Of a DNA stretch of 42,492 bases, positions 16,547-40,463 are shown piece by piece. Where the stretch lies: NCBI GenBank assembly GCA_028711215.1, contig JAQTSO010000012.1:1-42492 (forward strand), read 5' to 3'. Within the stretch, counting starts at the first letter, position 1. Every line of letters starts with the position of its first letter. A model generated the notes under the pieces. The model searched no databases and was not told the origin of the DNA. It saw only the letters and a program-made list of their open reading frames with translations. Source of the DNA: Endomicrobiaceae bacterium. Lineage in GTDB: Bacteria > Elusimicrobiota > Endomicrobiia > Endomicrobiales > Endomicrobiaceae. Both the position numbers and the translations under genes were made by a program.

Positions 16547-16551
16547 CCTCC
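16547..16551 (-). promoter_or_regulatory. Ribosome-binding site that fixes the pilM start
   Basis: GGAGG on the minus strand lies 7 bases before the GTG at 16539-16537. It sits inside the longer frame that opens at TTG 16566, arguing against that start. Confidence 0.75.
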
Positions 16552-16589
16552 GTACCACCTGCACAAAACAAAAAGTTCAATGCTACGTG

Positions 16590-16595
16590 ATTATA
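16590..16595 (-). promoter_or_regulatory. Possible -10 box for the pilM operon
   Basis: A perfect TATAAT lies about 50 bases before the pilM GTG, within the 140-base gap between pilX-like and pilM genes. I see no good -35 at 16-18 bases, so the promoter may need an activator or not be real. Confidence 0.35.
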
Positions 16596-16679
16596 CAATA
16601 TTTCCACTTTTTTGAATACAACAAAATATTTTTCTTATAAAGATTAACTAAAACATGTTTATTCTATCAAATCTTAACT

Positions 16680-17261
16680 CTACTGAATAGTCCCATTATC
16701 ATTTTGTATAAGTTTATGTTCTCTCCATGCGGCGAAACGTTTTCTAAAATAATTATCCGGCGTTATACTGGATACATAAAAGTAATATGATACCGTAGAA
16801 TATATAACATCGGAATTGACTGTAACTGAGGATACTCCCATTATTCTGTAATACTGAACCACCGTGGTTGTTGAAAAATCCACATATAGTGCATTAGGCG
16901 GAACCGGCGCCCTTCGTACCTCAACTTTTGCAAATACTACCGGGAAAGTCGGGGTTGTATCATATCCGCTTGCCACCGCAGCATTGACCGCACTCGACCC
17001 TGACACCCAATCACCTGAAGCTGGCACTGCCGCATCAACATAATTTATGGTTAAATGGTCAGGACATGTCACATTAATATATCCTCTCATCATTTCAACT
17101 ATGCCGTCAGCAGCATAAAAAGTTCTGACTTTTGCCACATCCGTTGCTACTAATGCATTTTGAGCTACAAACATTTCAAGAGATATAAATCCTATTATCG
17201 TCAATATAAACATTGATATCACAGTAACAATAAGAATTGCACCATTATTATTTTTTATCAT
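16680..17261 (-). CDS. PilX/GspK-like minor pilin
   Basis: The 193-residue protein starts MIKNNNGAILIVTVISMFIL: a short basic leader, a prepilin-type glycine and then a hydrophobic helix that lacks the usual glutamate at +5, as in PilX and GspK. FYAADGIVEMMRGYI matches the PilX N-terminal domain. The rest is a beta-rich head with few conserved features. It overlaps the pilW-like gene by 4 bases and ends the first pilus block. Such proteins sit at the pilus tip with PilV/PilW. Confidence 0.78.
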   Translation of the reverse strand: MIKNNNGAILIVTVISMFILTIIGFISLEMFVAQNALVATDVAKVRTFYAADGIVEMMRGYINVTCPDHLTINYVDAAVPASGDWVSGSSAVNAAVASGYDTTPTFPVVFAKVEVRRAPVPPNALYVDFSTTTVVQYYRIMGVSSVTVNSDVIYSTVSYYFYVSSITPDNYFRKRFAAWREHKLIQNDNGTIQ

Positions 17262-17941
17262 GACGGTAACCCGTATCCTCTTGCAATAAGATGAAATAAT
17301 CTTGTATATCTATATACTTCGCCGGTTGCCAAAGTGTCATCAAAATCTAGCCCTATTTTTACTAATGTAAACCTGTTAACACCGGCATATACATTGGAAG
17401 GTATATAGTAATATGCTACTTTTAAATTTGTTAATATTTGTTCTTCACTTATCAGTGCATGTCCTGAAATATTAAAGTCTGAGTCCGTATAATATATTCG
17501 AAGTAAAAGTTCATGGGTGCCTTCTTTTGTTGTCTCTCTCGGATTTGGTATTTGATCACAATAATATGTTTCATCTTTATAAAATCTTCCGGTTTTAACC
17601 GGGGCAGTACTATCTTTAACAACATATCTGTCAACAACATATCTGTTTCTTATTGTTCCGGTTCCTGAGTCCCAGTAAAGTTCCTGTCTGCCGAAATCCA
17701 AAGAGGTTGCCTGTGATGATGCTGCACTTGGTAAGATATTAATATAACATGCATTTTTAATCGATCTTCTCAGATAAGTTTCACAAACTCTGATATCGCT
17801 TGTTTCTTTTGAAACTCCAAAAAGAGTTTTATAAGCCTCATATGAAGCCAGTGTCATAATGTATAAAAAATATACAATTATTCCTGCCAGAATTACTGAA
17901 ACTAAAACTTCTATAAGTGTAAATCCTTTTTTATTTTCCAT
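17258..17941 (-). CDS. PilW-like minor pilin
   Basis: A class III signal is plain: MENKKG followed by FTLIEVLVSVILAG, with glutamate at +5, to be cut by a prepilin peptidase encoded elsewhere. The head of the 227-residue protein includes the RVCETYLRRSIKNACYI stretch typical of PilW/GspJ proteins and two or three cysteines that may form a disulfide. It overlaps its upstream neighbour by 11 bases (ATGG...TAA). It is probably part of the tip complex that primes pilus assembly. Confidence 0.85.
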   Translation of the reverse strand: MENKKGFTLIEVLVSVILAGIIVYFLYIMTLASYEAYKTLFGVSKETSDIRVCETYLRRSIKNACYINILPSAASSQATSLDFGRQELYWDSGTGTIRNRYVVDRYVVKDSTAPVKTGRFYKDETYYCDQIPNPRETTKEGTHELLLRIYYTDSDFNISGHALISEEQILTNLKVAYYYIPSNVYAGVNRFTLVKIGLDFDDTLATGEVYRYTRLFHLIARGYGLPS

Positions 17942-18359
17942 ATGGCACCGTTATATGAGTTTTTATTGATATTTTATGTCTGTTATTTATTCCAAGTTCC
18001 GTTCCGTCAGGATTTTTTAACGGCCATGTTGCCAATACATCTATTTGATGACAATAACTGGATCCTCCCAATGTTGTATCTATACCAACAACTCTTTTTA
18101 TTTCCACCGTTTTACTGGAAGGGGTTGATACATAGTATAACTCATTGGCTGTTATAACCGGAGAATCTTGATGTATTTTATATTTCATTTCTTCAACCAT
18201 TGATTGCACTTTATTTAAAACAATATTGTAGTCAATAGATTCAGTCTGATATTTCCAAGCTGCCGTAAAAAACCCCAATCCATAAACCATAACCATAATT
18301 GTTATTACTATTGACACCAATATTTCTAATAAAGTTAATCCTGCTTCTTTATAGCCCAT
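17931..18359 (-). CDS. PilV/GspI-like minor pilin
   Basis: The start at ATG 18359 gives MGYKEAG followed by LTLLEILVSIVI, a normal class III signal with glutamate at +5. An open frame extends upstream to 18410, but that would put 17 unrelated residues in front of the leader. The 142-residue length and the AWKYQTESIDYNIVLNKV segment fit PilV/GspI. The gene overlaps the preceding pilin gene by 11 bases. Confidence 0.83.
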   Translation of the reverse strand: MGYKEAGLTLLEILVSIVITIMVMVYGLGFFTAAWKYQTESIDYNIVLNKVQSMVEEMKYKIHQDSPVITANELYYVSTPSSKTVEIKRVVGIDTTLGGSSYCHQIDVLATWPLKNPDGTELGINNRHKISIKTHITVPYGK

Positions 18360-18774
18360 ATATTTCAACCTGTCCTTGAGGCAAATTTTGTTTGCTTGAT
18401 GTTGTAGCATTAATAACTGCTCTCAAAGTCACTCCGTTTGCCATACCGCTTCCATAAACATTGACGGTAAAGTTGTTCCCGCTTGCATAAGAAAGATCAA
18501 ATTCTTTAAAATACTCATTTTTAACTGCACTGACATTTATTTTAGAAGAACTTCCGACTCTTGAAGTCGTAGGAAATGTGCCATTTTGTGCTCTGTATAT
18601 TCTTGTCTGCACATCTATATTTTCTATAAGTTGCATACCTTCTTTTATAGCTGCCTTCCTAAATGTGCTTTTTTTAACACCAACAGCCACTAGAATAAGG
18701 ACGGCAACTATTATTATAACAACTATAGATTCAACAAGCCCGAACCCTCTTACATCTTTTATTTTACATTCCAC
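18349..18774 (-). CDS. Prepilin-like protein (GspH/FimT or PilE-like)
   Basis: This 141-residue product begins MECKIKDVRG followed by FGLVESIVVIIIVAVLIL, with glutamate at +5. It starts at GTG 18774, with AGGAG nine bases upstream inside pilC and an 11-base overlap with the pilC stop. The head contains QTRIYRAQNGTFPT, the alignment seen in many major pilins and pseudopilins, then a beta region. There are no cysteines in the head. It could be the main pilin or a FimT-type minor one. Confidence 0.78.
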   Translation of the reverse strand: MECKIKDVRGFGLVESIVVIIIVAVLILVAVGVKKSTFRKAAIKEGMQLIENIDVQTRIYRAQNGTFPTTSRVGSSSKINVSAVKNEYFKEFDLSYASGNNFTVNVYGSGMANGVTLRAVINATTSSKQNLPQGQVEIYGL

Positions 18775-20002
18775 TGGACATAGCTCCTGCCATATTAAAT
18801 ATTGGCAAATACAATGCTATAACTGCAATACCGATTGTAAAGCCCAAAAATATAATAAGGACCGGCTCAACTACTGAACTGAGTGTTGCGACAGCGACAT
18901 CGACTTCATCCGAATAATAATCAGTTATTTTTTCAAACATCTGGTCCAATTGCCCTGACTTTTCTCCCACTGCCGTCATTCTCACTATTATTTTGGGAAA
19001 TAATACATACTTATCCATTTTACTTGAAAAAGTTTCTCCTGCAATAACCCCTTCTCTTATATCAATCAACAAACTTCTGACATAAGTATTATTAACAGTT
19101 CCTGTAGCTATTTGAATGGATGATACTATATCAACACCGCTCTTAATAAGTGTGGATAACGTTTGAAAGAATCTTGCAAAAACCATCTTCGTATATATCG
19201 GAGTAAAAATCGGCACTTTAAAAAATAATTTGTGCCATGCCATTTTACCCTGCGGACTTTTAGTAATAATTTTAAATGCTATAATTCCAATAACTATTGA
19301 AATTATTATAAATGGCATTTTAGCAATCATAAATCTGCTGAAACCCATAACAATTCTGGTAGGAAGAGGCAAAGTTGCACCGAAAGAAGAAAACATTTCT
19401 TCAAACTTAGGAATAAGTCCCAGAACTAAACCGAAAAAAACCACAACGAAAAAGCAACCGACAAAAACAGGGTATGCCGCCGCCGATTTAATTTTTCTCC
19501 TAAGTTTAACTGTTTTTTCCATGTACGTTGCCAAATCTTCTAAAACTTCGGCCAATTTACCCGATTTTTCACCTACTAATACCATTGACAAAAAAGCATT
19601 GTCAAAAACTTTTGGATACTCCCCTAATGATTCTGATAAAGTTTTACCTGCTTTTACAGATTCGCCAACTCTTTGTAAAGTAATCGAAAAATACGGATTA
19701 TTCATCATCAGGGCTATATCGCTTACAGCATCTAATATATTTACTCCGGCATTGACAAGTGTTGCCATCTGTCTACAAAATATCGCAATTTCTTCGCCTT
19801 TTACTTTACCGCTTGCTTTTTTATTGCCGTTTAACGAAATGTTGTTAAATTTTGCAAACATGCTTACTTCTTCTTTTACTTCCAAAACAGTAAATCCGCT
19901 GTTTTTAAATTTTTCCATCAGCTGATTTTTGGAATCTGCCTCTTCTTTACCGGCAATAACCTGACCCGCCTGATCCATTACTTTGTATGTGAATTTATTC
20001 AT
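18764..20002 (-). CDS. pilC: PilC/GspF inner-membrane platform protein
   Basis: The 412-residue protein has the usual two GspF domains: EIAIFCRQMATLVNAGVNILDAV (about 70-92) and the matching FARFFQTLSTLIKSGVDIVSSIQIA (about 275-300). Three membrane helices lie at about 168-190, 220-240 and 380-402. The N-terminal domain KYKV-type (FTYKVMDQAGQVIAGKEEA) is present. It forms the platform turned by PilB. It begins 17 bases after pilB. Confidence 0.95.
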   Translation of the reverse strand: MNKFTYKVMDQAGQVIAGKEEADSKNQLMEKFKNSGFTVLEVKEEVSMFAKFNNISLNGNKKASGKVKGEEIAIFCRQMATLVNAGVNILDAVSDIALMMNNPYFSITLQRVGESVKAGKTLSESLGEYPKVFDNAFLSMVLVGEKSGKLAEVLEDLATYMEKTVKLRRKIKSAAAYPVFVGCFFVVVFFGLVLGLIPKFEEMFSSFGATLPLPTRIVMGFSRFMIAKMPFIIISIVIGIIAFKIITKSPQGKMAWHKLFFKVPIFTPIYTKMVFARFFQTLSTLIKSGVDIVSSIQIATGTVNNTYVRSLLIDIREGVIAGETFSSKMDKYVLFPKIIVRMTAVGEKSGQLDQMFEKITDYYSDEVDVAVATLSSVVEPVLIIFLGFTIGIAVIALYLPIFNMAGAMSSGM

Positions 20003-20019
20003 ACATCATCCTTGAAATT

Positions 20020-21708
20020 TTATTTTACGGCTGATGTAACAGAGAATACTTCATCAACCGTTGTAACTCCGGCTACCATCTTAGCTATTGCTGCCTCTCT
20101 TAAAGTTACAAGCCCTTCTTTATGTGCCATTTCTCTTATTTCCATATCATTTGCATTTGAAGTAATTAATTTTTTAATAGCACTTGTTACCGGCAACAAT
20201 TCAAAAATTGCAGTTCTACCCTTAAACCCTGTATCATCGCAGGATTTACATCCGCTTCCCTTATATATTTTTACAGTTCTGTCAATACCGAGTTTTTCAT
20301 ATACAACATCACTTAAATCTTTAACTTCTTTTTTACAAAAAGGACAAATCATTCTTACCAATCTTTGAGCAACTATTAAATTAACTGCATCTGCCAATAA
20401 ATAAGATTCTACTCCCATAAAAGTCATTCTTGAAATTGTACTTACAGTATCGTTTGTATGAACTGTTGAAAATACAAGATGTCCCGTTAAGGCTGCCTGT
20501 ATTGCAATCTGGGCTGTTTCTTTATCTCTTATTTCTCCGACAAGAATAACATCGGGATCTTGTCTCATAAAAGCTCTTAAAAATCTGGAGAAATCAAGAC
20601 CGATATCAGACCTCACATGGCATTGATTTATCCCTCTTAATTCATATTCAACGGGATCTTCTACAGTTGATATGTTAAGATCCTCACTGTTTATATGCTT
20701 AAGTGCTGCATAAAGTGTTGTTGTTTTTCCGCTGCTGGTCGGTCCCGTTACCAAAATCATCCCGTACGGAGCAGCTATCGCTTCGGTAAAAAGAACTATT
20801 TCTCTGGGAGTAAACCCAATATTGTCGATACCTAAATTGGCAAATAATTCTTTTGCCAAAATTCTCATAACTACCTTTTCACCCCAAATGGTCGGAATAA
20901 TAGAAACACGAATATCTGTTTTAATGCCGTTTATATTTACTCTGCATTTACCGTCTTGAGGCAATCTTCTTTCTGCAATATCAAGTTCCGACATAATCTT
21001 GATTCTTGAAACGATTGCATTATAATATTTTTTCTGAGGCGACTGAAAGGATACTAAATCACCGTCTAGTCTCATTCTCAAACTTATATCTTTTTCAAAA
21101 GGTTCAAGATGAATATCGCTGGCCCTTTTTGTTATAGCATCAAAAAATATTGAATTTACATACTTGACAACCGGTGCGGAATCAGCATTTGTATCTGCTA
21201 TATCATCATCACCCTCTATTTGTTTTTTGTTGCTTTCATCTTCCAAATCAATGCTCATCGATGTTCTTACATAATATTTTTCGATAAATTCCTGCACATC
21301 TTTTTCTGATGCCAAACATACGGAAAGTTTTTTACCAATCATTTTTTGAATATCGTCTTTGAAGATAACATTTGCGGGGTCAACCATTGCTACCGTTAAA
21401 GTATCATCTTTAACTTTTATCGGAACTACTGAATATTTTCTTGCTATTTTTTCGGGAATTAAATCAAGAACCGTCTGGTTTACTTCGGGGATTTCTGCCA
21501 AATTACGACGCTCGACACCTAATGATATGGAAAGAGCTTTTAATAAATCTTCTTCTGAAATGTATTTTTTTTCTACTAAAATTTCGCCAATTCTTACTTT
21601 TCTGTCTAAAGATTCTTTAATAGCTTCTTCAAGCTGTTCTTTTGTTATTTTCTTTGACTCAAGAAGGACTTCACCTAAATACTTTTTTCTAAGTGTGGCT
21701 AGAACCAT
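20020..21708 (-). CDS. pilB: PilB/GspE assembly ATPase
   Basis: The 562-residue hexameric ATPase powers pilus or pseudopilus extension. An N-terminal MshEN-type domain (about residues 10-150: GEVLLESKKITKEQLEEAI, then GEILVEKKYISEEDLL) could bind c-di-GMP. Walker A GPTSSGKTTTLYAAL is at about 320, Walker B DPDVILVGEIRD at about 385, and the His box is GHLVFSTVHTND. A tetracysteine zinc site is formed by CPFC (near 450) and CKSC (near 488). ATG 21708 follows CGGAGAAATTA. It is the first gene behind a consensus promoter. No pilT is visible. Confidence 0.96.
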   Translation of the reverse strand: MVLATLRKKYLGEVLLESKKITKEQLEEAIKESLDRKVRIGEILVEKKYISEEDLLKALSISLGVERRNLAEIPEVNQTVLDLIPEKIARKYSVVPIKVKDDTLTVAMVDPANVIFKDDIQKMIGKKLSVCLASEKDVQEFIEKYYVRTSMSIDLEDESNKKQIEGDDDIADTNADSAPVVKYVNSIFFDAITKRASDIHLEPFEKDISLRMRLDGDLVSFQSPQKKYYNAIVSRIKIMSELDIAERRLPQDGKCRVNINGIKTDIRVSIIPTIWGEKVVMRILAKELFANLGIDNIGFTPREIVLFTEAIAAPYGMILVTGPTSSGKTTTLYAALKHINSEDLNISTVEDPVEYELRGINQCHVRSDIGLDFSRFLRAFMRQDPDVILVGEIRDKETAQIAIQAALTGHLVFSTVHTNDTVSTISRMTFMGVESYLLADAVNLIVAQRLVRMICPFCKKEVKDLSDVVYEKLGIDRTVKIYKGSGCKSCDDTGFKGRTAIFELLPVTSAIKKLITSNANDMEIREMAHKEGLVTLREAAIAKMVAGVTTVDEVFSVTSAVK

Positions 21709-27259: not shown

Positions 27260-27286
27260 TTTATTCCATCAAATTTCTAGTCTTTT
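27260..27286 (-). repeat. Source copy of the 27-base block, at the 3' end of the barrel gene
   Basis: It includes the last eight codons (KTRNLME and stop) of the 27261-29981 gene and has 25 of 27 bases in common with 24190-24216. Confidence 0.6.
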
Positions 27287-29981
27287 TTAATTTGCCGTTG
27301 TCGTCTTTCTTTAAAATAACGATTTCAACTCTTCTGTTTTGTTGTCTGCCAGCACTTGTAGCATTTGATGCAACCGGCACAGAAAACCAATACCCTTCAG
27401 GAACAATCTTACCGGCATCAATACCATTTTTTATAAGATATTCGGCAACTGATTTTGCTCTTCTGTCTGATAATTTGATATTGTATTCTTTTGTTCCGTA
27501 ATTATCGGTATGTCCTTCAACTCTTATATTACGATTTGGGTATGCCTTCAATACTCTTATCGCCTCATTCAATAGTTTTGTTGCTTTCGTTCTTAAATCA
27601 AACTTATCAAAGTCAAATAAAACCTTAGCTGAAAATCTCATTCTTAAACCTTCATCGGTTTCTTCAATATTCAAATCAGGAGTCAATAATCTTACTCTGC
27701 AAATTTCAGATTCAGCTACATTGCCGTATGTATCGGTTACAAATAATTGTGCATTATAATAGGCATCCGGAAGATACTTGTTCATAAAATCTTTACCGTT
27801 CCATATATCTGATTCAGGAGTTTCACCGGTGCCGTCAATTATATGTACTATTCTTCTGTTATCATCTGATAATTTTATTTGCCATGTTGCTACTCCGTTT
27901 TTGGCATAACCTTTAGGATACAATGTTACCTTTTCGCCTTTTGTAGGCATGAACACATCCGTTGACAAACTCAAAGCAGCTGTAGGCGGTTCAACTCTTT
28001 CTTTCTTTCCAAAACTAAACAATGCATTGAAAACAAGTCTTGCATATACTCTGACTTCATCAAAAGTTCCGAGTTCATTTCTTGAAGTAGTATCACCGTC
28101 TATAAGCTGAATAATTCTTAATTCCGTTTTTCTGCCGCCGACATAATCAACTCCGACATTTATACAAGGAAGAATATCTCTGGATACCTGAGCTAAATAT
28201 AATTCATCATATGTTGCTCCAAAATCCCTGTTCCAATCTTCAGGACCCCAAGCATCTCTGGCATAACCGACTTTGAACTTATACGGTGCTCTTCTAATTG
28301 TTAAATTAGTTTTAAAATATCCTGTTATCTCTTTTAAAAATACTTGTGTATGTGTATACGGAGTACTCATTCTTGCAACATCTTCACCGACCTCAAAATC
28401 ATATATACATTCCACATCATTATCTAAAAACATTCTTGTCATAAAATACAAAGATCCCAAGTAACCTTTTGTAGGAAGCGCTCCGGAAACCACACTGCCT
28501 GAATAATCTTCCCATACAGTTTCATGATTTTCATTTACATATATTTGTTTATCTGTTCCGCCTAGATATCTTGTTAATTTTACCCTTGTTGCAAATGTTA
28601 CAAGTGCATCTTCTCCGGGATTCAAGTTCCAGTCTTCAAAGTTGTTTGGTTCATATTTAAAAAACCATGTTTCAGGCGTTGTATCATAAACAAATGTTAA
28701 AGCAAATTCATCTGTCTCTCTGTTATCCCAACCTGTCGGGGAATTTCTCCACCATACCCAAAAAGGCTGCGAAGGTCCTCTTGGTTCTATTAAATCAGGC
28801 CCATATGTACTGCCGACACCGGGAATTGCATTTAACAAAGGTTTTCTGTGCATAGCACCCACTGTCATTATTAAATCTTTTGTGACAGCCTGCTGAACTT
28901 CTGCATCCAATTGTTGTTTGTTACCTGCTGATAAACCTTGATATGTGTATTTTAATGTAGTTAAATCAATACCGAAAAACGTTTTCGGCATCATAAGTTT
29001 TACTGCACCGCCGAAAGCATCTGAAATTTTTGTTCTGTCTTGTTTTATAACATATTGAGACCCGTTTGTACCGGTTCCCAACGGAACTTCGCTGTCTACA
29101 TAATCATATTCTTTGTCTATCCTAAAAGGTCTGAACATCGCACCAACCTGCAATGTATTTCCGTTTACATTAAAATCCGTACTAATTTCAGCAGTTTTCA
29201 TCCTCTCGCCGGGTGTTCCGTAAGGTATTATATGATCTGCATAGAAAAAATTTATATTGCTTTGAAGTATGTTCTTATATTTGAGATACACACCCTGCTT
29301 ATAATCAACTACAGGTTCTTCTCCGTATATTGCTGTAAACTCACCGGCTGTTCCCTTCATATCCAATTGAAACCACTCCGGAATTGCTCTGCCGGAAACT
29401 CTTAAATTATTATAAGCATCCGGATCTGCCTGATATAAACCAAACATATCTCCTTCATATCTCCAATCGTAATGAGACTGATTTCTGTAGTATCCCAAAT
29501 TTGCCCAATCGTTATGAACAACAACCTTTGCCGTATTCCAAAAATATTTCGGAACTATTACAGATTCCTCATACATTCTATGTGCATTGTTTACAGTATT
29601 CCAATATCTATCCGCATAACCCATAATAAAATCAAAACCAAATTGGGCATATGCCCAATTTGTCGGTTTAAATGCAAGGTCTACAAAGAGGGTTTGACCC
29701 CAATTGTCTCTCCAAGCCTGATCTTTTAAATTTTGATTTGATGAATCGTATCTGAAAAAATTAGTTAAATAATTTGGAGATGTGTACCAGCCGTTACCTA
29801 ATTGATTAAAGATACCTTCCATTAATAATTCGGCTCTGACCGCAACATCTTGAACGCCTAAAGACTCTGCATTCAGCGAATCTGAACGCCTGAAATCATT
29901 TCTGAAATACTCAGCATACGTTGAAGAAACAAACAGTACACTCAAAAATAATATCGTTAAAATCGTCTTTTTGATTTTCAT
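27261..29981 (-). CDS. Large outer-membrane beta-barrel with a C-terminal OmpA (peptidoglycan-binding) domain
   Basis: The protein is 906 residues. After the signal peptide (cut near TYA) comes a barrel of roughly 650 residues rich in Trp and Tyr, with paired strands such as LFVDLAFKPTNWAYAQFGFD. An Ig/FlgD-like segment lies at about 685-795 (PPTAALSLSTDVFMPTKGEKV, then VATWQIKLSDDNRRIVHII). A complete OmpA domain closes it (about 800-895), with VEGHTDNYGTKEYNIKLSDRRA and NRRVEIVIL, which binds meso-diaminopimelate in peptidoglycan. It heads the operon of binding proteins, so it may be the surface transporter or docking protein of that system. I do not recognise the barrel family. Confidence 0.75.
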   Translation of the reverse strand: MKIKKTILTILFLSVLFVSSTYAEYFRNDFRRSDSLNAESLGVQDVAVRAELLMEGIFNQLGNGWYTSPNYLTNFFRYDSSNQNLKDQAWRDNWGQTLFVDLAFKPTNWAYAQFGFDFIMGYADRYWNTVNNAHRMYEESVIVPKYFWNTAKVVVHNDWANLGYYRNQSHYDWRYEGDMFGLYQADPDAYNNLRVSGRAIPEWFQLDMKGTAGEFTAIYGEEPVVDYKQGVYLKYKNILQSNINFFYADHIIPYGTPGERMKTAEISTDFNVNGNTLQVGAMFRPFRIDKEYDYVDSEVPLGTGTNGSQYVIKQDRTKISDAFGGAVKLMMPKTFFGIDLTTLKYTYQGLSAGNKQQLDAEVQQAVTKDLIMTVGAMHRKPLLNAIPGVGSTYGPDLIEPRGPSQPFWVWWRNSPTGWDNRETDEFALTFVYDTTPETWFFKYEPNNFEDWNLNPGEDALVTFATRVKLTRYLGGTDKQIYVNENHETVWEDYSGSVVSGALPTKGYLGSLYFMTRMFLDNDVECIYDFEVGEDVARMSTPYTHTQVFLKEITGYFKTNLTIRRAPYKFKVGYARDAWGPEDWNRDFGATYDELYLAQVSRDILPCINVGVDYVGGRKTELRIIQLIDGDTTSRNELGTFDEVRVYARLVFNALFSFGKKERVEPPTAALSLSTDVFMPTKGEKVTLYPKGYAKNGVATWQIKLSDDNRRIVHIIDGTGETPESDIWNGKDFMNKYLPDAYYNAQLFVTDTYGNVAESEICRVRLLTPDLNIEETDEGLRMRFSAKVLFDFDKFDLRTKATKLLNEAIRVLKAYPNRNIRVEGHTDNYGTKEYNIKLSDRRAKSVAEYLIKNGIDAGKIVPEGYWFSVPVASNATSAGRQQNRRVEIVILKKDDNGKLKKTRNLME

Positions 29982-30075: not shown

Positions 30076-32853
30076 CTAAAAATTATATCTAATATTTACC
30101 TGGCCGCCAAAACCGGTTCTGCCCATTGCTCTTCCAAATAAATCTGCACCGACAGTAAATTTTTCACCAAAATACTTATTAACTCCGACACCATATTGGG
30201 TATATGTTTTAATCGGCATATTCGGTAACTGGCTGTCATTTGCTTTAAATTCCATATTATCAATCAAATTCCAGACTATGCTTGCATTAACATATGTTTG
30301 AAAAGTTTTTGTTACATTTGCCAAAAGTTTCATAGCCGGTTCTAATTGTACAGGGGTAAGCGAATTCGTATTTACATTTACTGTTGCCTCTGTCGGACTT
30401 ATAAAACTATAGCTTGCCATGTTGATATATGAATATGACAAATTAAGAGTTGGCTGAAACTTGAATTTATTCTCATTATCAAGCTCAAAATTAAAGCCTG
30501 TTTTTGAAGCAATACCTCTCGTAAATATCATGGTATTTTCTTTTCCGTAAGCTCCTTCACCCTGACCGTTTATAAAACCGAAATTAACAGTAAGTGCGGA
30601 GAAAAATCTATTTTTATACAAAGCACCTGTAACACCTAATATTCCGCCGTTCTGGGTTATTTTTGCACCTTCGTATGTCTGTTCTGAAGTATTGTAAGAA
30701 CCGTAAAAAGAAATATTGCCAAAGAAATTACCGCCGGCTTCCAATACTTCGGTATCATATCCGAAATAAGCTCCGCTTGTAGTATTTGTTAATGTTAGTA
30801 AATCATCAAGTTGGATATCTTCTTTAGAACCATAATATCTTAGCCATAAACCTTTTGTATTATTGTTGTTAACGGTATTATCAACTATTTCAAAAGCTTG
30901 TCTGTAAGATTCCAACTGTCCTAAATAACCACCGACCTGCATAACTATAGGTGTTATAAATACTATCGGGTTATAATCGTATGTATATGCAAATGATAAA
31001 ATACCGTTTTGGTAATTTGTATAATATTCAAATACCGGACCCATAACTTTTGTCTGAGTAAATGTTATTTTATCTGCCAAAGCACCTTCGGCTACAGTAA
31101 CATTTACCGTATCGTGTATATCCGTCATATCATTGTAAATATACAGCTTGCTTATTTCAAGACTTCCGTTGCCTGTCCCGAGTGCTGAACCTACAAAATT
31201 ATCAACCTCTTTGTTTTTTAAAGAAACTCCCAGTTCCAAATATGAAATCTCATTATCAGGCAAATTTAAATTTACCGCTATATTGTCAATTTTACCGTTT
31301 ACCAAATTAAGAGTTGTCCCGCCGTGCATATTAAATTCTACGTCATTAAAAAACACAGAATTATATCCCATCCAAAGCGTTCCGCTTGAAAAATTTACAA
31401 CATTTCCGGCACCTGAAAATCCGCTCATATCTGCATTTAATAAAATCGTACTTGAAGAAAACAATTGACTGTTTAGGTTAATAACATTACCGGTTCCGCT
31501 GGATGTTATCGTATTATAAAAACCAACCAGGCTGTCATCGGCAACATCAATATTAAGCGTCGATCCGTTTGCACTGTTAATTTTACCGCCGAAAACAACT
31601 ACACTGTTTGTACTGCTTAAAACCAAATTTAATGTGTTGGAACTTATCATCGCTATTGAAGAAGAATTTACAAGTCCTATTTCGCTTGTAAACATTTTGT
31701 CGGCAAGAATATTTATCTCACCCTGTCTGATTGTTGCAGTGTTAATTAAATCTGAACCAAGATTTAAAACACCGGCACCTAATATTATATTATTGTTAAC
31801 CGTTCCCGATGTAAAATTTACAACACCATTATTTGTTATGAAGGTTACGTCTATGTCGTTAAGAGAAGTATTTAAAGTTCCTATTGACGAAACAGTAATC
31901 GTAGACTGGGAAATAAAAGCATTATTGGTAAAAGTTCCCGAAGATATTCCAAATGTTCCGACACCCGCAACATCCTGTAATATTGTTTCATCTGTACCTA
32001 TAAAATAAATAGATCCGTTATTTGTAAGTTCGGTATTTGCCATATTGTTAAAATTTTCAAAACCTACCGTTATATATCCGTTATTTATAAAACCTGCGCC
32101 GGCAGTTATGTTACCGTTTGAAGAATCTATTACATTTGAATTTATTCCACCCGTAAATAAGATACTGCCTTCATTATTGATTTTGTTTGTAACCAAAACA
32201 TCATCGGCACTTGTCATAAGTGTTCCCAATGCTCCGATATTTATTGTATTTTGGTCAATTAAAAATCCATCAGTATTAGTAACAAATGCAACAGGAAGAA
32301 TATTCAATATGCCGTCACCTGAAATATTATTGCCGTTTGTTCCGCCGGTAAATTCAAGCGTTCCGTTATTTACTATTGCACTTGAAGCTTTTATGTTTGA
32401 TGCATTTGTATTTACTGTTGAATAAGAACTTATTTGTATACAGTTGGAGAAATCAAGTGCGGCGTTATTTGTAACCGTAGAAGTTGAATTAACTATAAAA
32501 TCATATGCTTTCAAATCCTGGTCATTTGTCAGATTTATATTATTAACCGTTATACTTGAACCTGCAATTAAAAGATTAATTTCTTGGTCGTTAACCCAGT
32601 TACTCGGAGTAGTATCTGTTCCTTGAACCGTTAATGAATTTGCTGTTATCGTTGAAAATGTTACCGAAGACCCGCTTACCAAATTTACATATCCTTCTGA
32701 AGTCATTGTGCTTGTAAATATATTATCAGATGAAACATCTGAAGAATATGCATAATTTTCATCCGTATTATCACCCGTAATTGTCGCAAAACTTTTACTG
32801 CAAGCAAACATTGTTATAAAAGCCAAACAAAATATAAATGAAATTTTTCTCAT
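30076..32853 (-). CDS. Autotransporter adhesin (925 residues)
   Basis: A signal peptide is followed by TITGDNTDENYAYSSD, a passenger of about 600 residues with degenerate beta-helix repeats (patterns of NNGTLEFTGGTNGNNISGDG type, rich in T, N, S and G) and a C-terminal barrel (about 660-925: KGLWLRYYGSKEDIQL through VNIRYNF). The final phenylalanine is the usual signal for outer-membrane insertion by BAM. The first 60 residues closely match the next, larger protein, so the two are paralogues. No protease or catalytic domain is seen; adhesion is the likely role. The stop is TAG. Confidence 0.85.
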   Translation of the reverse strand: MRKISFIFCLAFITMFACSKSFATITGDNTDENYAYSSDVSSDNIFTSTMTSEGYVNLVSGSSVTFSTITANSLTVQGTDTTPSNWVNDQEINLLIAGSSITVNNINLTNDQDLKAYDFIVNSTSTVTNNAALDFSNCIQISSYSTVNTNASNIKASSAIVNNGTLEFTGGTNGNNISGDGILNILPVAFVTNTDGFLIDQNTINIGALGTLMTSADDVLVTNKINNEGSILFTGGINSNVIDSSNGNITAGAGFINNGYITVGFENFNNMANTELTNNGSIYFIGTDETILQDVAGVGTFGISSGTFTNNAFISQSTITVSSIGTLNTSLNDIDVTFITNNGVVNFTSGTVNNNIILGAGVLNLGSDLINTATIRQGEINILADKMFTSEIGLVNSSSIAMISSNTLNLVLSSTNSVVVFGGKINSANGSTLNIDVADDSLVGFYNTITSSGTGNVINLNSQLFSSSTILLNADMSGFSGAGNVVNFSSGTLWMGYNSVFFNDVEFNMHGGTTLNLVNGKIDNIAVNLNLPDNEISYLELGVSLKNKEVDNFVGSALGTGNGSLEISKLYIYNDMTDIHDTVNVTVAEGALADKITFTQTKVMGPVFEYYTNYQNGILSFAYTYDYNPIVFITPIVMQVGGYLGQLESYRQAFEIVDNTVNNNNTKGLWLRYYGSKEDIQLDDLLTLTNTTSGAYFGYDTEVLEAGGNFFGNISFYGSYNTSEQTYEGAKITQNGGILGVTGALYKNRFFSALTVNFGFINGQGEGAYGKENTMIFTRGIASKTGFNFELDNENKFKFQPTLNLSYSYINMASYSFISPTEATVNVNTNSLTPVQLEPAMKLLANVTKTFQTYVNASIVWNLIDNMEFKANDSQLPNMPIKTYTQYGVGVNKYFGEKFTVGADLFGRAMGRTGFGGQVNIRYNF

Positions 32854-32975: not shown

Positions 32976-35900
32976 TTATTGTACCAATACTTCAACTTCT
33001 TCTTCCTGAACAATTATTATTTCAACTCTACGGTTTATTTCACGATTTGCCGGTGAATCATTAGGAACCAAATTCTCGTTTGAACCTTTTCCGATTACCG
33101 AAATTTTATTTTTTATACCGTAATCTTTTTCCAAAGATATTGCAACTGCACTTGCTCGTCCTTCTGAAAGTTTCTGATTATATGCAGGTGCACCGAAATT
33201 ATCACAATGTCCTTCAATTAACAATTCAGCATCAGGATATCTTTGTAATTCTTTTAAAACCTGTTGCAAACTTGCTTTGCCTTTTTCTGTTAACTCTGTA
33301 GAATTAAATTTGAATTGCAATTTGCTTTCCAATTCTACTTGTGTTATTTTTCTTTCTTTTATTTTCTTTGCCTGTTCTGTAGTTACTATTTTTGACTTCA
33401 TTTTTTCATAATCTTTCTGAAGTTGTTTCAATTCTTTTCTAAGTCCCTCTGATACTTTCTTTTCATTTTCAAGTTTTGACGCAAAATCTTCATCAACAAC
33501 GGTGACAACAACCGGAGCATCTTTTTTCGGACAACCGAATTTATACGTTAAACCTATGTTTGCATATATTTCTTTAGATCTGCGGGCTAAATTTGTCTGT
33601 CCGTTTGCAAATATTGTCCAGTCTTCTGAAAGAATATAATCTGCTCCAATTCCGCCCGATATTGAAAATGGTGAAAGCGGTGCACTTTTTATCTTCATAT
33701 TCGTTTCATCTGAATAATCAAGCAATGACACATATGTTTCCGCATAATCTCTCGTTAACAATTGCCTTGCTCCTACATTTGCATACCACCCGAATTTGCT
33801 AACCTTTCCTGTTACTCCGACTCCTAATCTTGCCTGTGCCATCAATATATTACTGTCTTCAACTTTCAAATTAAGAGCATCTGCTCCTGTTTCTTCAAAT
33901 CCGTTTTGTTTCATGTATGATGCAAATACTCCTGCAAACGGTTTCAATGTTACTTTATGTTTTGCATCTGCATTCTTTGTCAAAAGTATTTTATATGCTC
34001 CCTCTAAATCAAATGAGGTACTATAACCCTGAGAATTGCTCTTTGCTGTTCTATCCATAAATGCTATATCTCTTTCCGTATTGTATCTTTCCCAACCTGC
34101 AAACAACATGCTCTTAAACTGCCATTTATTTGTTTCGTATCCGCCGTATAATCCCAAATTAACATCTTTCATGTTTGTGCTATCATTTTCCTGATTCAAT
34201 GTTGATTCTCCGTATCCGGACATTATTCCCATTGTCCATGATTTCTCGGATATCATATCAAAACCTACTAAGAAACCATTTACATAAGTATTATAATTTG
34301 GAGAGTTTTCATTTCCGTCAACGCCATAATTATTATAATAGTATTCGCCCCATATCTTATCGTGGAATTTATGGCATGGGTTTATTTCTGCATTTCTTGA
34401 TTGAATTCTGTCATAAACATGTTCAGTTTTTGCATTAAAGTACGGAAGCAATGCTGAGTTGGCATATATAACACCGGCTATATCGTTAAATCCCGCTTTA
34501 AGCGCATCTAAATCATATGTGCTTGTATAATAATAATACTGCTCAAGAGCATCCAACGCATATGTTATATCTCCGCCGTTTCCTGTTGAAATTGCATCTA
34601 TAGATCTTGCAACTTCACTCTCGTTATGAGACATATCCGTCAGCTCTGTTGAATTTTCATATTCCGATGCTTTTCTGCTGACATTAACCTGCAATACATT
34701 GCCTACTGTTGCGGTGCTAAAATCTATTCTTGAACCTAATCTCAAATCAGGAGTATCTATATCAAATCCTGTTATTGATGAATTTGCAAATTCGCCTGTT
34801 AAAGTATCAGAAGATGTAATAATATCAAATGTTTCATGAACGAAGAATTTGCCGTCAATATTTATTAAGTCAAGCAATGTGTTGTTGCTGTCAATTGTTG
34901 TTGTTCCGGAAACGTTCGTCGTGTCATTATTTACGCCACCGTTCGGCATGCTCGTTTGTTCAAATTCTACTTCATAAGTTGAACTGCTTGCAAAAACCAA
35001 GTCGCCGACTATATTTGTAACACCTATTGAATTACCAGGAGCCAATGTTGAGTCTGCACCCATTACTACAGTCTCTGCGGTTATAATTGAATTACCACCT
35101 AACAAACTGTTTGTAAATGTCATGGTACTGTCAACTACAAAACCATTGTCACTTTCGATATTATTTACATACAAAGCACCACCGGTAATATTTGCCTGAT
35201 ATGCTCTGAAATAATTTATAACTTCCATTGAGGCTGAACCAGTTTTATTAAATGTTCCGATATAATCTGTACTGTCAACTTCGTTTAACACTACATCATA
35301 CCCGTAAGCACTTGGAGCTTTCGGATACAAAGCACTCACTACAATGCTGTCGCTATAGTGGACACCGTCAGTAAATTCATATGTATCTAAATTTGCAACA
35401 CCTGTTCCGAAAAGTCTGCCATTGATATTTTCTGTTGTTCCAATTAATGTTCCGTTGTTAACGTATGTATCGCCTTGATAGTAATTTTCATCCATTTCAA
35501 GTTCTAATACTCCGTTCCCGTCTTTTACTAAGTTTACAGGAGTTGTTGACTGTTGGTCTATTACACCGTCAAGATAAAGATGTCCGTCAATAACATCTAT
35601 ATTTACATTATTACCTTCTGTTCCTGTTAACTGGTTATTTATCGTAAAATTGTTTGCTGAAGCTATAAGTTTACCGCCGTCAAATCCAATTGCATTGTCT
35701 CCGATATTAGATTCATCTGAAATTTGCAATGCGCCTTCAGTTATAATTGTTTGTCCTGTATACGTATTTGCACCTGTAAGTTCTACAATTCCGGCTCCTG
35801 TTTTAACAAGAACTCCCGAGCCGTCAACATCTTCATCCAAAGTTGAATCTGTTGCATCTTTCAATTGAAGAATTCCATTATTGTGTATTATGTTATTTAT

Positions 35901-38900
35901 ATCTAGATCTCCTGCATTTGTAGTAAATCTGTTGTTTGAAGTAATTAAAACAACATTCTGTTCAATATTAACTCCGTTTGCATTTTCAACATCCCCGTCT
36001 ATAAACAATGCTCCGTCATCCGGCTTTGTTATTGTGCTTGTATTGAACCCGCCTGTAAAATGCAAATCCCATCCGTTAGCTATTTCTGTAGTTCCATTTA
36101 ACAAACTTGCATCAGATGTAAATGATGAGCCAATATCTTCTATTAATATAAGATTCTGCCCGATTGTCCCTGTATTTACAACTTCAGCTCCGTTTGTTAT
36201 GCTTAAAGTTCCGGAACCTGTTACATTATTTGCATTGTTTCCTGTTACATTAAAATCTAAAGTTCCGTTATTTAAAATTCTGTTTGCTATGTACAATAAA
36301 CTTGCATCCGTATGAAGAGTTGAACCGTTTGTTATCGCCATACCTTCTTGTCTTATTTCGCCTGTATTTGTTAAATCAGTTCCGTTTACTATACGGATAA
36401 TTCCGTCTCCTCTGATGTCATTAGCATTAGTGTCTGCACTTATTGCATGGTCAATAAACAATGTCCCGTTATTTTCTATGCCGTTAGCTATTGTTAATGA
36501 TTGTGCTGATGTTCTAAGTGTAGAATCTGAATTTATTCCCAAGTCATCCTGAGTTATTGAACCATCATTAATCATCGCTCCGCCGAATACCAACAATGCT
36601 CCGTTACCTGTAATAGCATTAGTATTTGTACCGCCGTTTGTTATAATCATACCGTAATTTTCTATATTAGCTAAGACATAGTCCATATCTGTTCTAAATT
36701 CAACATCTGATGATATATTTAAATTTGTTGCCGTAAGCTGTGAAATGTTTTGGAATAAACCGCCGTCAATATTTACATTTGACTGTTGCATTCCTGAACC
36801 TGAGTTATAAAAATCTCCGTTTATATTTAACGTACCGTTGCCTGAAATCTGTCCGACATTTGTTCCACCGTAGAAACTTACATCTGTATTGTTATTGTTA
36901 ATGAAGTTTCCACCAGTTGTAACCGTCAAATTTCTTTGTGCTATGTTTGCGGTATTTGTTACTGTGCCGTTAATTACCAAATCACCCGGAGTGGAATCAA
37001 ACCATGATATTACATTATTATTTGTCCCGCCGGTAAGCACTAAAGTTCCTGCATTGTTTATATTGCCGGTTAAACTTGATGCATTGCTTATCAAACCTGC
37101 TGTTTCTGATACTATATTTATATTTGCCTGACTCAATGTTCCGCTGGATTCATTTATAAATGTTCCGTATATCTGTATATCACCTGTTCCGGTTATTGCT
37201 CCGTTATTTAAAACATTGCCTACTTCAAATCCGCTTCCTCTTACTGCTGAATTGTCAATATTTCCGTTATTTGTAAGAGAATCTATAAAGAGATTTGAAC
37301 CTGAGTCATTAACGACATTTGCACCCGCATCAATAAAAGCACTGTTAACGTAAGTATTTGAAGAATTTCTAAAATCTCCGTAAACACCTAAATGGGCTTG
37401 GTCAATAGTGCTGGAGCTTCCAACAACACCTGTTATCAAAAGTGTTCCTGAGCCTGTTACAGGATTTACAATTGTTCCACCTGTAAATTCCAATATTGAA
37501 TCATTTGAAATGCCTGTATCAAGTATTAAATGATCGGCATCGGTAATTAAATGCCCGCCGTTTTCTATAATTGCCGTATACTGAATAATTGTTCCGCCTG
37601 AATTATCAAAAACACCGTTTGTCACGGTCATTGTTCCAAACCCTACTCCATTCTGCCTGCTGATTGTACCGAGATTTAATCCACCTTCAATATTTAAATA
37701 ATTATCATTAAAAAATACGGAAGAATCTGTGTTTATTAAATAATCTATATTTGCATTTCCATTATTTGCGAAAATATCAGTATTTATCAAAGTCCCGGCA
37801 TTTATTATACCGGTTGACGTATTTACAAAAGGCCCGTCATTTGTAAAATTGGCTATATTCATTACTCCGTCATTTTGTCCGAAAGCATAGTTTTCAAACA
37901 CATCAGCATTAACCGTTCCGACTCCGTTATTTACAAATGTTTCTGCGTTTGCAATTGACCCCTGAACTATTGAAGAACTGTTGAATAAAGTATATCCGTT
38001 AAAAATTTCAATTCTGCCGGAACCAGTTATTGCATTAAAATTTTCTCCGCTGTCATTTATGCCGAACTCAATCAATCCGTTATTTAAAATTCTTCCGCCT
38101 GCCGTATAAGTGTCTATGTCGTCAATATCGGCATCAAGCTCACCGGCTTCGTCTATATTTATGTTCGTTGCCGTTATTGAACTGCCTGCAATATTATTAA
38201 AAGTGCCGCTTGTTATATTGACAGCAAACTGATTTATATCGGCAGTATTTGTTAAATTGCTTTCTGCTCCGTTATATGTCAATGTCCCTGTCCCTATTAT
38301 CTTATCGTCACTTATTCCGCCTGTAAATATAAAATCTCCGTCGTTTGATATGAATTTATGTATATTTGAATTAGAAGCATTTGTTATTACATAAGCGCTG
38401 CTTGATATATATAATTCTTCTTGTGACATATTCCCGTTATTTGTAAAATGACCGGATATATTGAGTATTCCTTCCGATGTTGTGCCGTATGTTATTGACC
38501 CGTTATTAACGCCGTTTACTACATTTAACACTCCATCGTTTTGCAATAAAGCCGCCAATGTTGTTGTTCCTACTAAAAGTGTATCGGTAATTGTTATTGT
38601 TGAACCTTCATCATTCCCCAATCCCATAGAATCATATATTGTCAAATTGGCTTGGTCTATTGTTCTTGTATTCCCAATTAATCCATTTATAAACAAACTT
38701 CCTGTTCCTGAAATATCATTATTGTTATATTCCAAGTACCCATTAAGTGTTAAATTGCCGTCATTATATATTTTATCAGATACAATTAAATCGTCGGCAT
38801 TTGCAGTCATTGAAGCATTATCTGAAATAGTTATTGTGCTTTGAGTGATAGTTACACCCGCCTGCTGATTAAAAATTGTGTTCCCCAATATTTCCAACTC

Positions 38901-40307
38901 ACCTGTACCTGTTAAAAGATTTGCATTGTCTACTGTTCCGCTGCTGTTATCAACATCAACCTGAAGTAAGCCGTCATTATATATTGCACCGCCTGCCGTA
39001 TAAGTATCAAGCATATTTCTAGTAAGCAATGTAGCTCCGCTTGACACGAACATATTAATAGCTGTTATTTCTCCGTTATTTGTAAATGTCCCGCTTGTTA
39101 CATGAAAAGAGCCTTGTCCTATATTTCCGTTATTTGTTATATTGCCGGTATTAAACAAATCTCCTGTACCGGTTATTTCATTATCATTTGTTCCGCCTGT
39201 AAAAGTTAACTGACTGTTGTTTACTATTGAATTGCTTACTGTCAACAAACTTGCATTTGTCTCAAAAGTCGATCCGCTGTTTATTGTTATTGTTGATTGT
39301 GTTATATTTGCAGAGTTTGTTACCCAAGGAGAATCTATTTCAAGTTCTCCTGTTCCTTCCATATTATTTATATTATTGCCACCCGCATTTATTGTAAGAA
39401 GTCCGTTATTGGTTATAATCCCTGTAGGCAAATAAGTAGTATTTATATTATCTATATCGGTTATAAAAACAGAACCGCTGTTTATTTTCAACTGTCCTAA
39501 CTGTGCATAAGCCGAATTTGTAACTGTTGAATTGTTTGTTATTTCTAAAACACCTACTCCGCTTATGTCATTATAATTTGTACCGTCCGCATTTATACGT
39601 AATGTACCTGCATGGTTTATTGAGTTTACTACGCTTATATCGTCTATATCCGTTTCTAATAAAGCACTGCTGTTTATCTGCAAATTATTTACTGTTATTG
39701 AACTTCCTGCAACATTATTAAGAGATGCTCCGATAGTAACAGACATATAGTCTTGAATAATGTCAGCATTATTTATAACAGAATCATATATCCCTAACCA
39801 TCCCGATCCGACTATATCATTATAGTTAGTCCCGCCGTAAAGAGATAAATAACCGTTATTATTTACAACTGCTCCGTAAGTATATGTATCAAGATTATCG
39901 GCACTTGTACTAAAATACGAATCGCTTGATATGGTTATTGTAGAAGTTTTTATTAATGCATTATTTGTAAAATTTATAGAATTTAAATTGAGATTAGCAG
40001 GAACATAAAGATCTAGTGCTTGGTTGCCATACCAAGTAACAAGTCCTCCGCTTGCAGTTCCGTCAACAGTTAATGTTATTGCCGTTGTCGGATTTAATGT
40101 TACAGATGAACCACTTACCGAATTCCAGTATCCTGAACCTGTCATTGTGTTTGTATAAATTGTATCAGCTGAACTATCGGATGAGTATGTATAATTTTCG
40201 GAAGTATTATCACCGCTGATTGTTGCAAAAACCGCTGAAGCAGACACCGCCACCGACATAAATAAAACCACAAAAAACCTCACTGAACTTTTTGAAAAAT
40301 AGTCCAT
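32976..40307 (-). CDS. Giant autotransporter with a C-terminal coiled coil and OmpA domain
   Basis: The start at ATG 40307 gives 2443 residues: MDYFSKSS then a long signal peptide (FFVVLFMSVAVSASAVFA). Residues about 30-1490 are a passenger of imperfect repeats (NNGTLxFTGGTNxNxIxGTG, IxQxxIxI types). A PATR-like block at about 1500-1650 includes VELTGANTYTGQTIITEGAL. A beta-barrel of autotransporter type spans about 1984-2255 (KIWGEYYYNNYG to GLTYKFG). Unlike normal autotransporters it continues with a charged coiled coil (about 2270-2320) and an OmpA domain (about 2335-2435: LLIEGHCDNFGAPAYNQKLSEGRA, INRRVEIII). It should be surface-exposed and tethered to peptidoglycan. Confidence 0.88.
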   Translation of the reverse strand: MDYFSKSSVRFFVVLFMSVAVSASAVFATISGDNTSENYTYSSDSSADTIYTNTMTGSGYWNSVSGSSVTLNPTTAITLTVDGTASGGLVTWYGNQALDLYVPANLNLNSINFTNNALIKTSTITISSDSYFSTSADNLDTYTYGAVVNNNGYLSLYGGTNYNDIVGSGWLGIYDSVINNADIIQDYMSVTIGASLNNVAGSSITVNNLQINSSALLETDIDDISVVNSINHAGTLRINADGTNYNDISGVGVLEITNNSTVTNSAYAQLGQLKINSGSVFITDIDNINTTYLPTGIITNNGLLTINAGGNNINNMEGTGELEIDSPWVTNSANITQSTITINSGSTFETNASLLTVSNSIVNNSQLTFTGGTNDNEITGTGDLFNTGNITNNGNIGQGSFHVTSGTFTNNGEITAINMFVSSGATLLTRNMLDTYTAGGAIYNDGLLQVDVDNSSGTVDNANLLTGTGELEILGNTIFNQQAGVTITQSTITISDNASMTANADDLIVSDKIYNDGNLTLNGYLEYNNNDISGTGSLFINGLIGNTRTIDQANLTIYDSMGLGNDEGSTITITDTLLVGTTTLAALLQNDGVLNVVNGVNNGSITYGTTSEGILNISGHFTNNGNMSQEELYISSSAYVITNASNSNIHKFISNDGDFIFTGGISDDKIIGTGTLTYNGAESNLTNTADINQFAVNITSGTFNNIAGSSITATNINIDEAGELDADIDDIDTYTAGGRILNNGLIEFGINDSGENFNAITGSGRIEIFNGYTLFNSSSIVQGSIANAETFVNNGVGTVNADVFENYAFGQNDGVMNIANFTNDGPFVNTSTGIINAGTLINTDIFANNGNANIDYLINTDSSVFFNDNYLNIEGGLNLGTISRQNGVGFGTMTVTNGVFDNSGGTIIQYTAIIENGGHLITDADHLILDTGISNDSILEFTGGTIVNPVTGSGTLLITGVVGSSSTIDQAHLGVYGDFRNSSNTYVNSAFIDAGANVVNDSGSNLFIDSLTNNGNIDNSAVRGSGFEVGNVLNNGAITGTGDIQIYGTFINESSGTLSQANINIVSETAGLISNASSLTGNINNAGTLVLTGGTNNNVISWFDSTPGDLVINGTVTNTANIAQRNLTVTTGGNFINNNNTDVSFYGGTNVGQISGNGTLNINGDFYNSGSGMQQSNVNIDGGLFQNISQLTATNLNISSDVEFRTDMDYVLANIENYGMIITNGGTNTNAITGNGALLVFGGAMINDGSITQDDLGINSDSTLRTSAQSLTIANGIENNGTLFIDHAISADTNANDIRGDGIIRIVNGTDLTNTGEIRQEGMAITNGSTLHTDASLLYIANRILNNGTLDFNVTGNNANNVTGSGTLSITNGAEVVNTGTIGQNLILIEDIGSSFTSDASLLNGTTEIANGWDLHFTGGFNTSTITKPDDGALFIDGDVENANGVNIEQNVVLITSNNRFTTNAGDLDINNIIHNNGILQLKDATDSTLDEDVDGSGVLVKTGAGIVELTGANTYTGQTIITEGALQISDESNIGDNAIGFDGGKLIASANNFTINNQLTGTEGNNVNIDVIDGHLYLDGVIDQQSTTPVNLVKDGNGVLELEMDENYYQGDTYVNNGTLIGTTENINGRLFGTGVANLDTYEFTDGVHYSDSIVVSALYPKAPSAYGYDVVLNEVDSTDYIGTFNKTGSASMEVINYFRAYQANITGGALYVNNIESDNGFVVDSTMTFTNSLLGGNSIITAETVVMGADSTLAPGNSIGVTNIVGDLVFASSSTYEVEFEQTSMPNGGVNNDTTNVSGTTTIDSNNTLLDLINIDGKFFVHETFDIITSSDTLTGEFANSSITGFDIDTPDLRLGSRIDFSTATVGNVLQVNVSRKASEYENSTELTDMSHNESEVARSIDAISTGNGGDITYALDALEQYYYYTSTYDLDALKAGFNDIAGVIYANSALLPYFNAKTEHVYDRIQSRNAEINPCHKFHDKIWGEYYYNNYGVDGNENSPNYNTYVNGFLVGFDMISEKSWTMGIMSGYGESTLNQENDSTNMKDVNLGLYGGYETNKWQFKSMLFAGWERYNTERDIAFMDRTAKSNSQGYSTSFDLEGAYKILLTKNADAKHKVTLKPFAGVFASYMKQNGFEETGADALNLKVEDSNILMAQARLGVGVTGKVSKFGWYANVGARQLLTRDYAETYVSLLDYSDETNMKIKSAPLSPFSISGGIGADYILSEDWTIFANGQTNLARRSKEIYANIGLTYKFGCPKKDAPVVVTVVDEDFASKLENEKKVSEGLRKELKQLQKDYEKMKSKIVTTEQAKKIKERKITQVELESKLQFKFNSTELTEKGKASLQQVLKELQRYPDAELLIEGHCDNFGAPAYNQKLSEGRASAVAISLEKDYGIKNKISVIGKGSNENLVPNDSPANREINRRVEIIIVQEEEVEVLVQ
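35890..40060 (-). repeat. Coding tandem-repeat region of the giant autotransporter
   Basis: The passenger-coding part repeats units of about 45-65 codons, well over a dozen, each with a phrase like GTLxxTGGTNxNxIxGxGxLxI. Similar DNA phrases such as CCGTTATTTGT recur through it. Such regions expand and shrink by recombination, so length may vary between strains. Borders are approximate. Confidence 0.65.
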
Positions 40308-40311
40308 CATT

Positions 40312-40316
40312 CCCCC
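40312..40316 (-). promoter_or_regulatory. Ribosome-binding site that fixes the giant autotransporter start
   Basis: GGGGG is followed at once by AATGATGG. It is 4 bases from the second ATG (40307) and only 1 from the first (40310), favouring the second. The frame stays open upstream to 40409, but that would place 34 residues before a good signal peptide. Confidence 0.55.
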
Positions 40317-40463
40317 GATAATATTAAATAAATTTTGTAAATATGATTGTGTTGCATAAACATGCTTCAAAAGTTTACTAAAAAAAATAAGATTTTGCAA
40401 ATTTTTCACATTTGTATATTGACTTTGTATTTATTCCTTTTAAAAGCACCAAATAATAATAAT

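Follow-up and report, generated by a model that had tools for sequence, protein, structure and literature searches.

An autotransporter barrel continued in frame by a linker and an OmpA-family domain: a likely built-in wall anchor in Endomicrobiaceae

Results

The locus and its neighbours

We have analysed here a stretch of 42,492 nucleotides from an Endomicrobiaceae bacterium (the window), which encodes a giant autotransporter-like protein on its minus strand. The frame is open for 2477 codons from a GTG, although translation likely begins at the tandem ATG ATG near 40310/40307, which lies 3' of a ribosome-binding-like GGGGGA and gives a protein of 2443 residues. Residue numbers used here are those of the 2477-codon frame, and subtracting 34 gives the 2443-residue numbering of the first-pass annotation. 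The domain order is signal peptide, passenger, passenger-associated transport repeat (PATR), helical stretch, PF03797 barrel, linker and PF00691 OmpA domain, and the only Pfam domains found are PF03797, PF00691 and PF12951. The features of the protein and of the two genes beside it are as follows.

32976-40409, minus strand: giant autotransporter-OmpA frame, uninterrupted, 2477 codons from GTG
40224-40307, minus strand: signal peptide MDYFSKSSVRFFVVLFMSVAVSASAVFA, read from the sequence, preceded by GGGGGA
34620-40223, minus strand: passenger of about 1870 residues, Asn/Gly/Thr-rich beta-repeat, predicted beta-solenoid (AlphaFold; TIGR02601 and PATR matches)
35721-35810, minus strand: best PATR copy, residues 1534-1563 (PF12951, E=5.2e-12)
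34377-34619, minus strand: helical region preceding the barrel, residues 1931-2009 (AlphaFold helices of low confidence)
34374-34376, minus strand: Cys2012, immediately N-terminal to strand 1, co-occurring with Cys2293
33537-34376, minus strand: type Va autotransporter barrel, 12 predicted strands (PF03797, E=1.5e-39, residues 2019-2270)
33537-33572, minus strand: internal beta-signal, last strand EIYANIGLTYKF, aligned to autotransporter ends of the same phylum
33531-33533, minus strand: Cys2293, immediately past the last strand, co-occurring with Cys2012
33345-33536, minus strand: charged, predicted helical linker, residues 2292-2355, starting GCPKK (AlphaFold)
33030-33314, minus strand: OmpA-family peptidoglycan-binding domain, residues 2366-2460, with Asp2403 and Arg2418 (D-x14-R; PF00691, E=7.2e-18)
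30076-32853, minus strand: 925-residue autotransporter paralogue, ending with its barrel (..VNIRYNF*) and lacking an OmpA domain
27261-29981, minus strand: 906-residue envelope protein, which has an OmpA domain of its own at the C terminus (PF00691, E=5.4e-21)

The N-terminal repeat region of the 925-residue paralogue is 34% identical to the giant protein (E=7e-30) and its C-terminal region is 29% identical to a PF03797 protein of the same genome, L003 (E=7e-35); its barrel gave no Pfam match. The large N-terminal region of the 906-residue protein is otherwise unrecognised, and relatives of 912-936 residues are present in three other genomes (G072, G078 and G059). The gene order is kept at the corresponding locus of Candidatus Proruminimicrobium (L004; Endomicrobiaceae, Elusimicrobiota), with frames of 2499, 935 and 911 residues, the 935-residue frame standing in the paralogue's place. 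Elsewhere in the window we note type IV pilus/type II secretion-like genes (secretin, PilM, T2SSF and T2SSE; 12713-21708, minus strand) and BatD and VWA genes (2284-5752). The source organism is a gut-type member of the Elusimicrobiota.

Passenger, barrel, linker and OmpA domain

The N-terminal part of the protein has the character expected of a type Va autotransporter, with a signal peptide read from the sequence and a passenger predicted to be beta-solenoid-like. The AlphaFold model of residues 1-493 is of repetitive beta structure with short regular strands, mostly at pLDDT 80-95 past residue 150. A fold search of the passenger model against the PDB returned no significant match, the nearest being the passengers of autotransporters and of two-partner (TPS) systems.

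The last strand of the barrel, YANIGLTYKF (2282-2291), is a normal beta-signal, and it aligns with the ends of other autotransporters of the phylum, which terminate in ..GNVGLAYTW* or ..GALYRW*. About 186 residues lie beyond it, including a full OmpA domain in which the PF00691 match spans the whole length of the model. The linker is highly charged (44% D/E/K/R across 68 residues counted from Gly2292), and what had been noted as a coiled coil is predicted to be a charged helix. An AlphaFold model built from five sequences shows a barrel of 12 strands, a helix in the linker and the fold of OmpA; confidence is moderate for the barrel-linker-OmpA model as a whole (mean pLDDT 60, pTM 0.39) and pLDDT is about 80 in the OmpA part. 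The closest Foldseek matches to the barrel are autotransporter translocators (EstA, 1.3e-12; NalP, 2.6e-10; AIDA-I, 1.2e-8; also AaaA and EspP), and those to the tail are the C-domains of OprF (5u1h) and Acinetobacter baumannii OmpA (3td3), with TM scores (target) of about 0.77. By sequence, too, the closest solved relative of the tail is the peptidoglycan-binding domain of OprF, 5u1h (phmmer, E=8.4e-17).

Asp2403 and Arg2418 have the same spacing as a pair in A. baumannii OmpA, align with OprF and are invariant in 14 relatives. We take them to match D271 and R286 of A. baumannii OmpA, which bind diaminopimelate. The D-x14-R spacing is kept in 53 of 56 fused OmpA domains (50 by pattern and three on reading the exceptions), and the tail can be assigned to PF00691 by its sequence, its fold and its Asp/Arg pair alike. 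Relatives of the giant protein have linkers of 21-329 residues.

The succession of barrel, linker and OmpA domain is also the plan of OmpA and OprF, and Foldseek matched a full-length OmpA model at rank 12. The protein could then be chiefly a clamp of the outer membrane to the wall, as OmpA is, with an incidental passenger. We regard this as improbable, since the barrel is an autotransporter translocator rather than the 8-strand barrel of OmpA and bears a passenger of about 1870 residues, and since Pal-like and other OmpA proteins are present in each genome too.

The fused frame in independent genomes

The source genome is a bin of 168 contigs with an estimated contamination of 8.78%, which raises the concern that two genes were wrongly joined in assembly or annotation, and independent copies therefore matter. 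The same barrel-linker-OmpA frame is present in Candidatus Proruminimicrobium, Candidatus Praeruminimicrobium (L005) and Candidatus Ruminimicrobiellum (L007), with 83%, 65% and 44% identity to the giant protein, respectively, over the folded region. Barrel, linker and OmpA domain align to the Proruminimicrobium protein without a gap, and the dN/dS ratios in this comparison (0.089 for the barrel, 0.161 for the linker and 0.037 for the OmpA domain) indicate purifying selection across the junction. The shared frame, the gapless junction and the low dN/dS together argue that the OmpA domain is translated with the barrel and is constrained. Fused frames are common to independent genomes, among them one assembled as a single contig (G059) that has several copies, and we consider an artefact extremely unlikely; misassembly is ruled out by the independent genomes, the gapless junction and the selection on it. 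The first-pass annotation had proposed an intact barrel and a complete OmpA domain in one frame and had asked for alignment with relatives. Those relatives have no frame break between the two domains, Pfam, AlphaFold and Foldseek agree with them on the proposal, and the same three methods have the barrel region fold as an autotransporter translocator. We also note that a 5.1-kb contig filed under a Bacteroidales metagenome-assembled genome (L006) encodes a protein end identical to the Proruminimicrobium tail, and is probably mis-binned.

Distribution of fused and other tails

An alignment of 14 barrel-plus-OmpA sequences was used to search 295 Elusimicrobiota genomes. Full-length fused matches were found in at least 26 genomes, a lower bound because few candidates were scored per genome, and in 12 of the 14 sampled genera of Endomicrobiaceae (counted by hand). 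The autotransporter barrel followed by OmpA is a recurrent architecture of the Endomicrobiaceae. Among 72,556 plasmid records, no single place covered 80% of barrel plus OmpA, the matches being either barrels or OmpA proteins.

We inspected the downstream frame of 98 distinct barrels identified by PF03797 in Endomicrobiaceae, which are the top-scoring matches, concentrated in few genomes, rather than a random sample. An OmpA domain follows in frame in 42 of these and the protein ends within 30 residues in 34; the others have another long tail (15), a separate OmpA frame downstream (three), or run off the stretch (four). Because the 34 tail-less barrels occur in the same genomes, an anchor is not required for export. 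The other long tails are TPR-like, Ala/Lys/Glu-rich or proline-rich, and the presence of TPR-like and Ala/Lys/Glu coil tails on the same barrels indicates that these barrels carry additional modules on their periplasmic side. In the source genome, the giant protein is the only one of three PF03797 proteins with an OmpA domain. Of 24 candidates scored in the single-contig genome (G059; 1,588,979 bases), at least 23 are autotransporter barrels. This genome also encodes 22 OmpA domains, roughly 13 of them in autotransporter-sized frames of more than 500 residues, and its frames reach 8163 residues.

Two sets of loci illustrate the other tails. In five (L134, L136, L142, L162 and L164), about 270-330 residues that appear TPR-like by eye stand past the barrel in the place of OmpA. 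In three more (L023, L032 and L170), the barrel is followed by 340-480 Ala/Lys/Glu-rich residues, presumably a coil, and by no OmpA domain in the stretch read.

A two-gene form in sister lineages

In two other families of Elusimicrobiota (f13 and f16), a related barrel ends normally (..GNVGLAYTW*) and has no fused OmpA domain. At six of the eight loci of this barrel clade, a gene for an OmpA lipoprotein lies about 20-90 nt downstream of the barrel. These lipoproteins have the lipoboxes VAGC, LAGC or LSAC and are of the type MKKLLVLLSSVLVAGC followed by F[IV]C[HPN]K.. and an OmpA domain. At one locus (L061, contig G130:C41, about 94519-95261), a single autotransporter gene is directly followed by a tandem pair of OmpA lipoprotein genes.

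The f13/f16 clade shares one fork of the barrel tree with the clade of the giant protein (SH-aLRT 90). In the OmpA-domain tree, the separate lipoproteins and the fused domains of the giant protein's clade form a single clade (97/94) that stands apart from 18 background OmpA domains of the phylum, Pal-like and others, which indicates that the fused and separate anchors are homologous. The two forms may have been interconverted by fusion or fission. A single origin for all fused OmpA domains is rejected (AU test, p=0.0008), and because the two main fused groups do not form one clade, the join has been made at least twice.

Discussion

We propose that the giant protein is probably a type Va autotransporter that carries its own periplasmic anchor to peptidoglycan, its surface part being large and adhesin-like. 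A Sec signal would bring it to the periplasm, where BAM would insert the 12-strand barrel by means of a beta-signal lying within the chain, and the beta-solenoid passenger would be threaded outward and stay attached to the barrel. Judging from homologous solved autotransporters, the last barrel strand ends on the periplasmic side, so that the linker and the OmpA domain would stay periplasmic, and the latter would bind the wall through its diaminopimelate stem peptide. The passenger would thus be tethered to the sacculus through the barrel, a flexible helical linker and the OmpA domain. Since a surface protein would in this way be tied to the wall and not to the outer membrane alone, a pull on the adhesin would be transmitted to the sacculus. 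The counterpart of this anchor in sister lineages would be a separate lipoprotein encoded beside the autotransporter. The anchor reading is supported by the domains, their folds, the Asp/Arg pair, the shared frames, the selection on them and the homology with the separate anchors. Anchorage to the wall from the inside, with the BAM signal internal, had been the central suggestion of the first-pass annotation, and it is borne out to the extent that it fits the topology, the conserved diaminopimelate pair and the operons of the sister lineages; that the protein binds the wall, adheres and bears mechanical load is what we infer.

OmpA-family domains occasionally have other roles, and this one may steady the envelope or help in biogenesis rather than bear load. 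A more specific proposal is that it mainly aids biogenesis and display by holding the precursor close to the wall and BAM, with load-bearing secondary. The precedent is AtaA-TpgA, a co-transcribed pair from Acinetobacter Tol 5 in which AtaA is a trimeric autotransporter and TpgA its periplasmic, peptidoglycan-binding partner (PMC8151025, PMC6604945); TpgA attaches to AtaA as well as to peptidoglycan, and less AtaA is displayed on the surface when TpgA is lost (PMC8151025). The OmpA lipoproteins encoded beside the sister autotransporters resemble this gene pair. However, many close relatives are exported without any OmpA domain, and the linker is free to vary in sequence and in length (21-329 residues), a freedom more in keeping with a tether than with a chaperone; we therefore see biogenesis as a possible but rather unlikely main role and prefer the load-bearing anchor. 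The likeness to AtaA-TpgA lies with the two-gene form of the other Elusimicrobiota, in which a separate gene adjoins the autotransporter, although the partners there are OmpA lipoproteins. AtaA is trimeric and TpgA is separate, whereas the partner of the giant protein is fused to it; against the TpgA model the OmpA region of the giant protein scores only weakly (E=1.5e-7) and falls far short of the cut-off.

The signal peptide, beta-passenger, PATR and 12-strand PF03797 translocator barrel are those of the classical type Va autotransporters, such as AIDA-I, EstA and NalP. To our knowledge, classical type Va autotransporters end at the last strand. The giant protein continues for about 186 residues more, and we accordingly term it a variant of the class. 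The contrast with classical autotransporters originally drawn from this locus is therefore sound, in that the tail is real, but the protein is not an isolated oddity, as the architecture recurs in Endomicrobiaceae.

The internal beta-signal is likewise present but not peculiar, because OmpA itself is built in this way and trimeric autotransporters with SLH or OmpA tails have been published (PMC7549365). Bechon et al. 2020 describe trimeric autotransporters that have SLH or coiled-coil tails in Veillonella (V. parvula VtaA-I) and PF00691 tails in Streptobacillus moniliformis, and they suggest wall attachment (PMC7549365). As in these type Vc proteins, an autotransporter barrel is followed by a periplasmic peptidoglycan-binding module or coil, although in type Vc each chain contributes one third of the barrel through a YadA anchor (PF03895), a domain that Pfam did not find in the giant protein, whose PF03797 barrel is complete and monomeric. 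Inverse autotransporters (type Ve) such as intimin, invasin and YeeJ have a periplasmic LysM (PMC5595812), and are similar in that a surface adhesin is held to the wall through a periplasmic part of its own chain. Their LysM and barrel are N-terminal and the passenger C-terminal, whereas the giant protein has the reverse order, with OmpA in place of LysM and no N-terminal LysM or barrel before the passenger. OmpA and OprF share the barrel with an internal beta-signal, the linker and the C-terminal periplasmic OmpA domain, but have an 8-strand barrel and secrete no passenger.

In the literature searched, which was chiefly open-access, we found no report of a monomeric PF03797 autotransporter with an OmpA domain, and autotransporters of Elusimicrobiota had two passing mentions only in the open-access literature searched. 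With the giant protein, wall anchoring would reach the classical monomeric class in addition to the trimeric and inverse ones, and the acceptance by BAM of an internal beta-signal with a folded periplasmic domain attached could be tested directly. One homologous unit that exists in both a fused and a two-gene form is a natural experiment on the need of an adhesin for a wall anchor.

More broadly, we lean towards a view in which the periplasmic end of the barrel in Elusimicrobiota docks swappable modules (OmpA, TPR-like domains and long coils), OmpA having been joined at least twice and occurring in fused and lipoprotein forms, with cysteine links in some lineages. The part concerning the fused and two-gene forms is well supported. 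The cysteine link, through either the flanking pair or a barrel cysteine and a lipoprotein cysteine, that would fix the anchor to the barrel in some lineages is speculative. The 2443-residue protein has three cysteines in all, one before strand 1, one two residues past the last strand and one in the OmpA domain. Among tailed barrels, both flanking cysteines are present in 27, a single one in eight and seven, and neither in 37 (Fisher p=5e-8, uncorrected); about 3-5 independent phylogenetic pairs agree with the co-occurrence and none contradicts it (p of about 0.06-0.13). Neither DsbA nor VKOR turned up in five Endomicrobiaceae genomes that were searched, and in view of this and of the few independent pairs (p of about 0.06 at best) we have not adopted a disulfide between the flanking cysteines. 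That anchor and barrel are covalently locked is an idea only, though a conceivable one. In the two-gene form, the barrel retains the first cysteine and the lipoprotein has a second cysteine three residues past the lipid-bearing one, the lipoproteins of L056, L058, L059, L061, L063 and L073 all starting with CF[IV]C.
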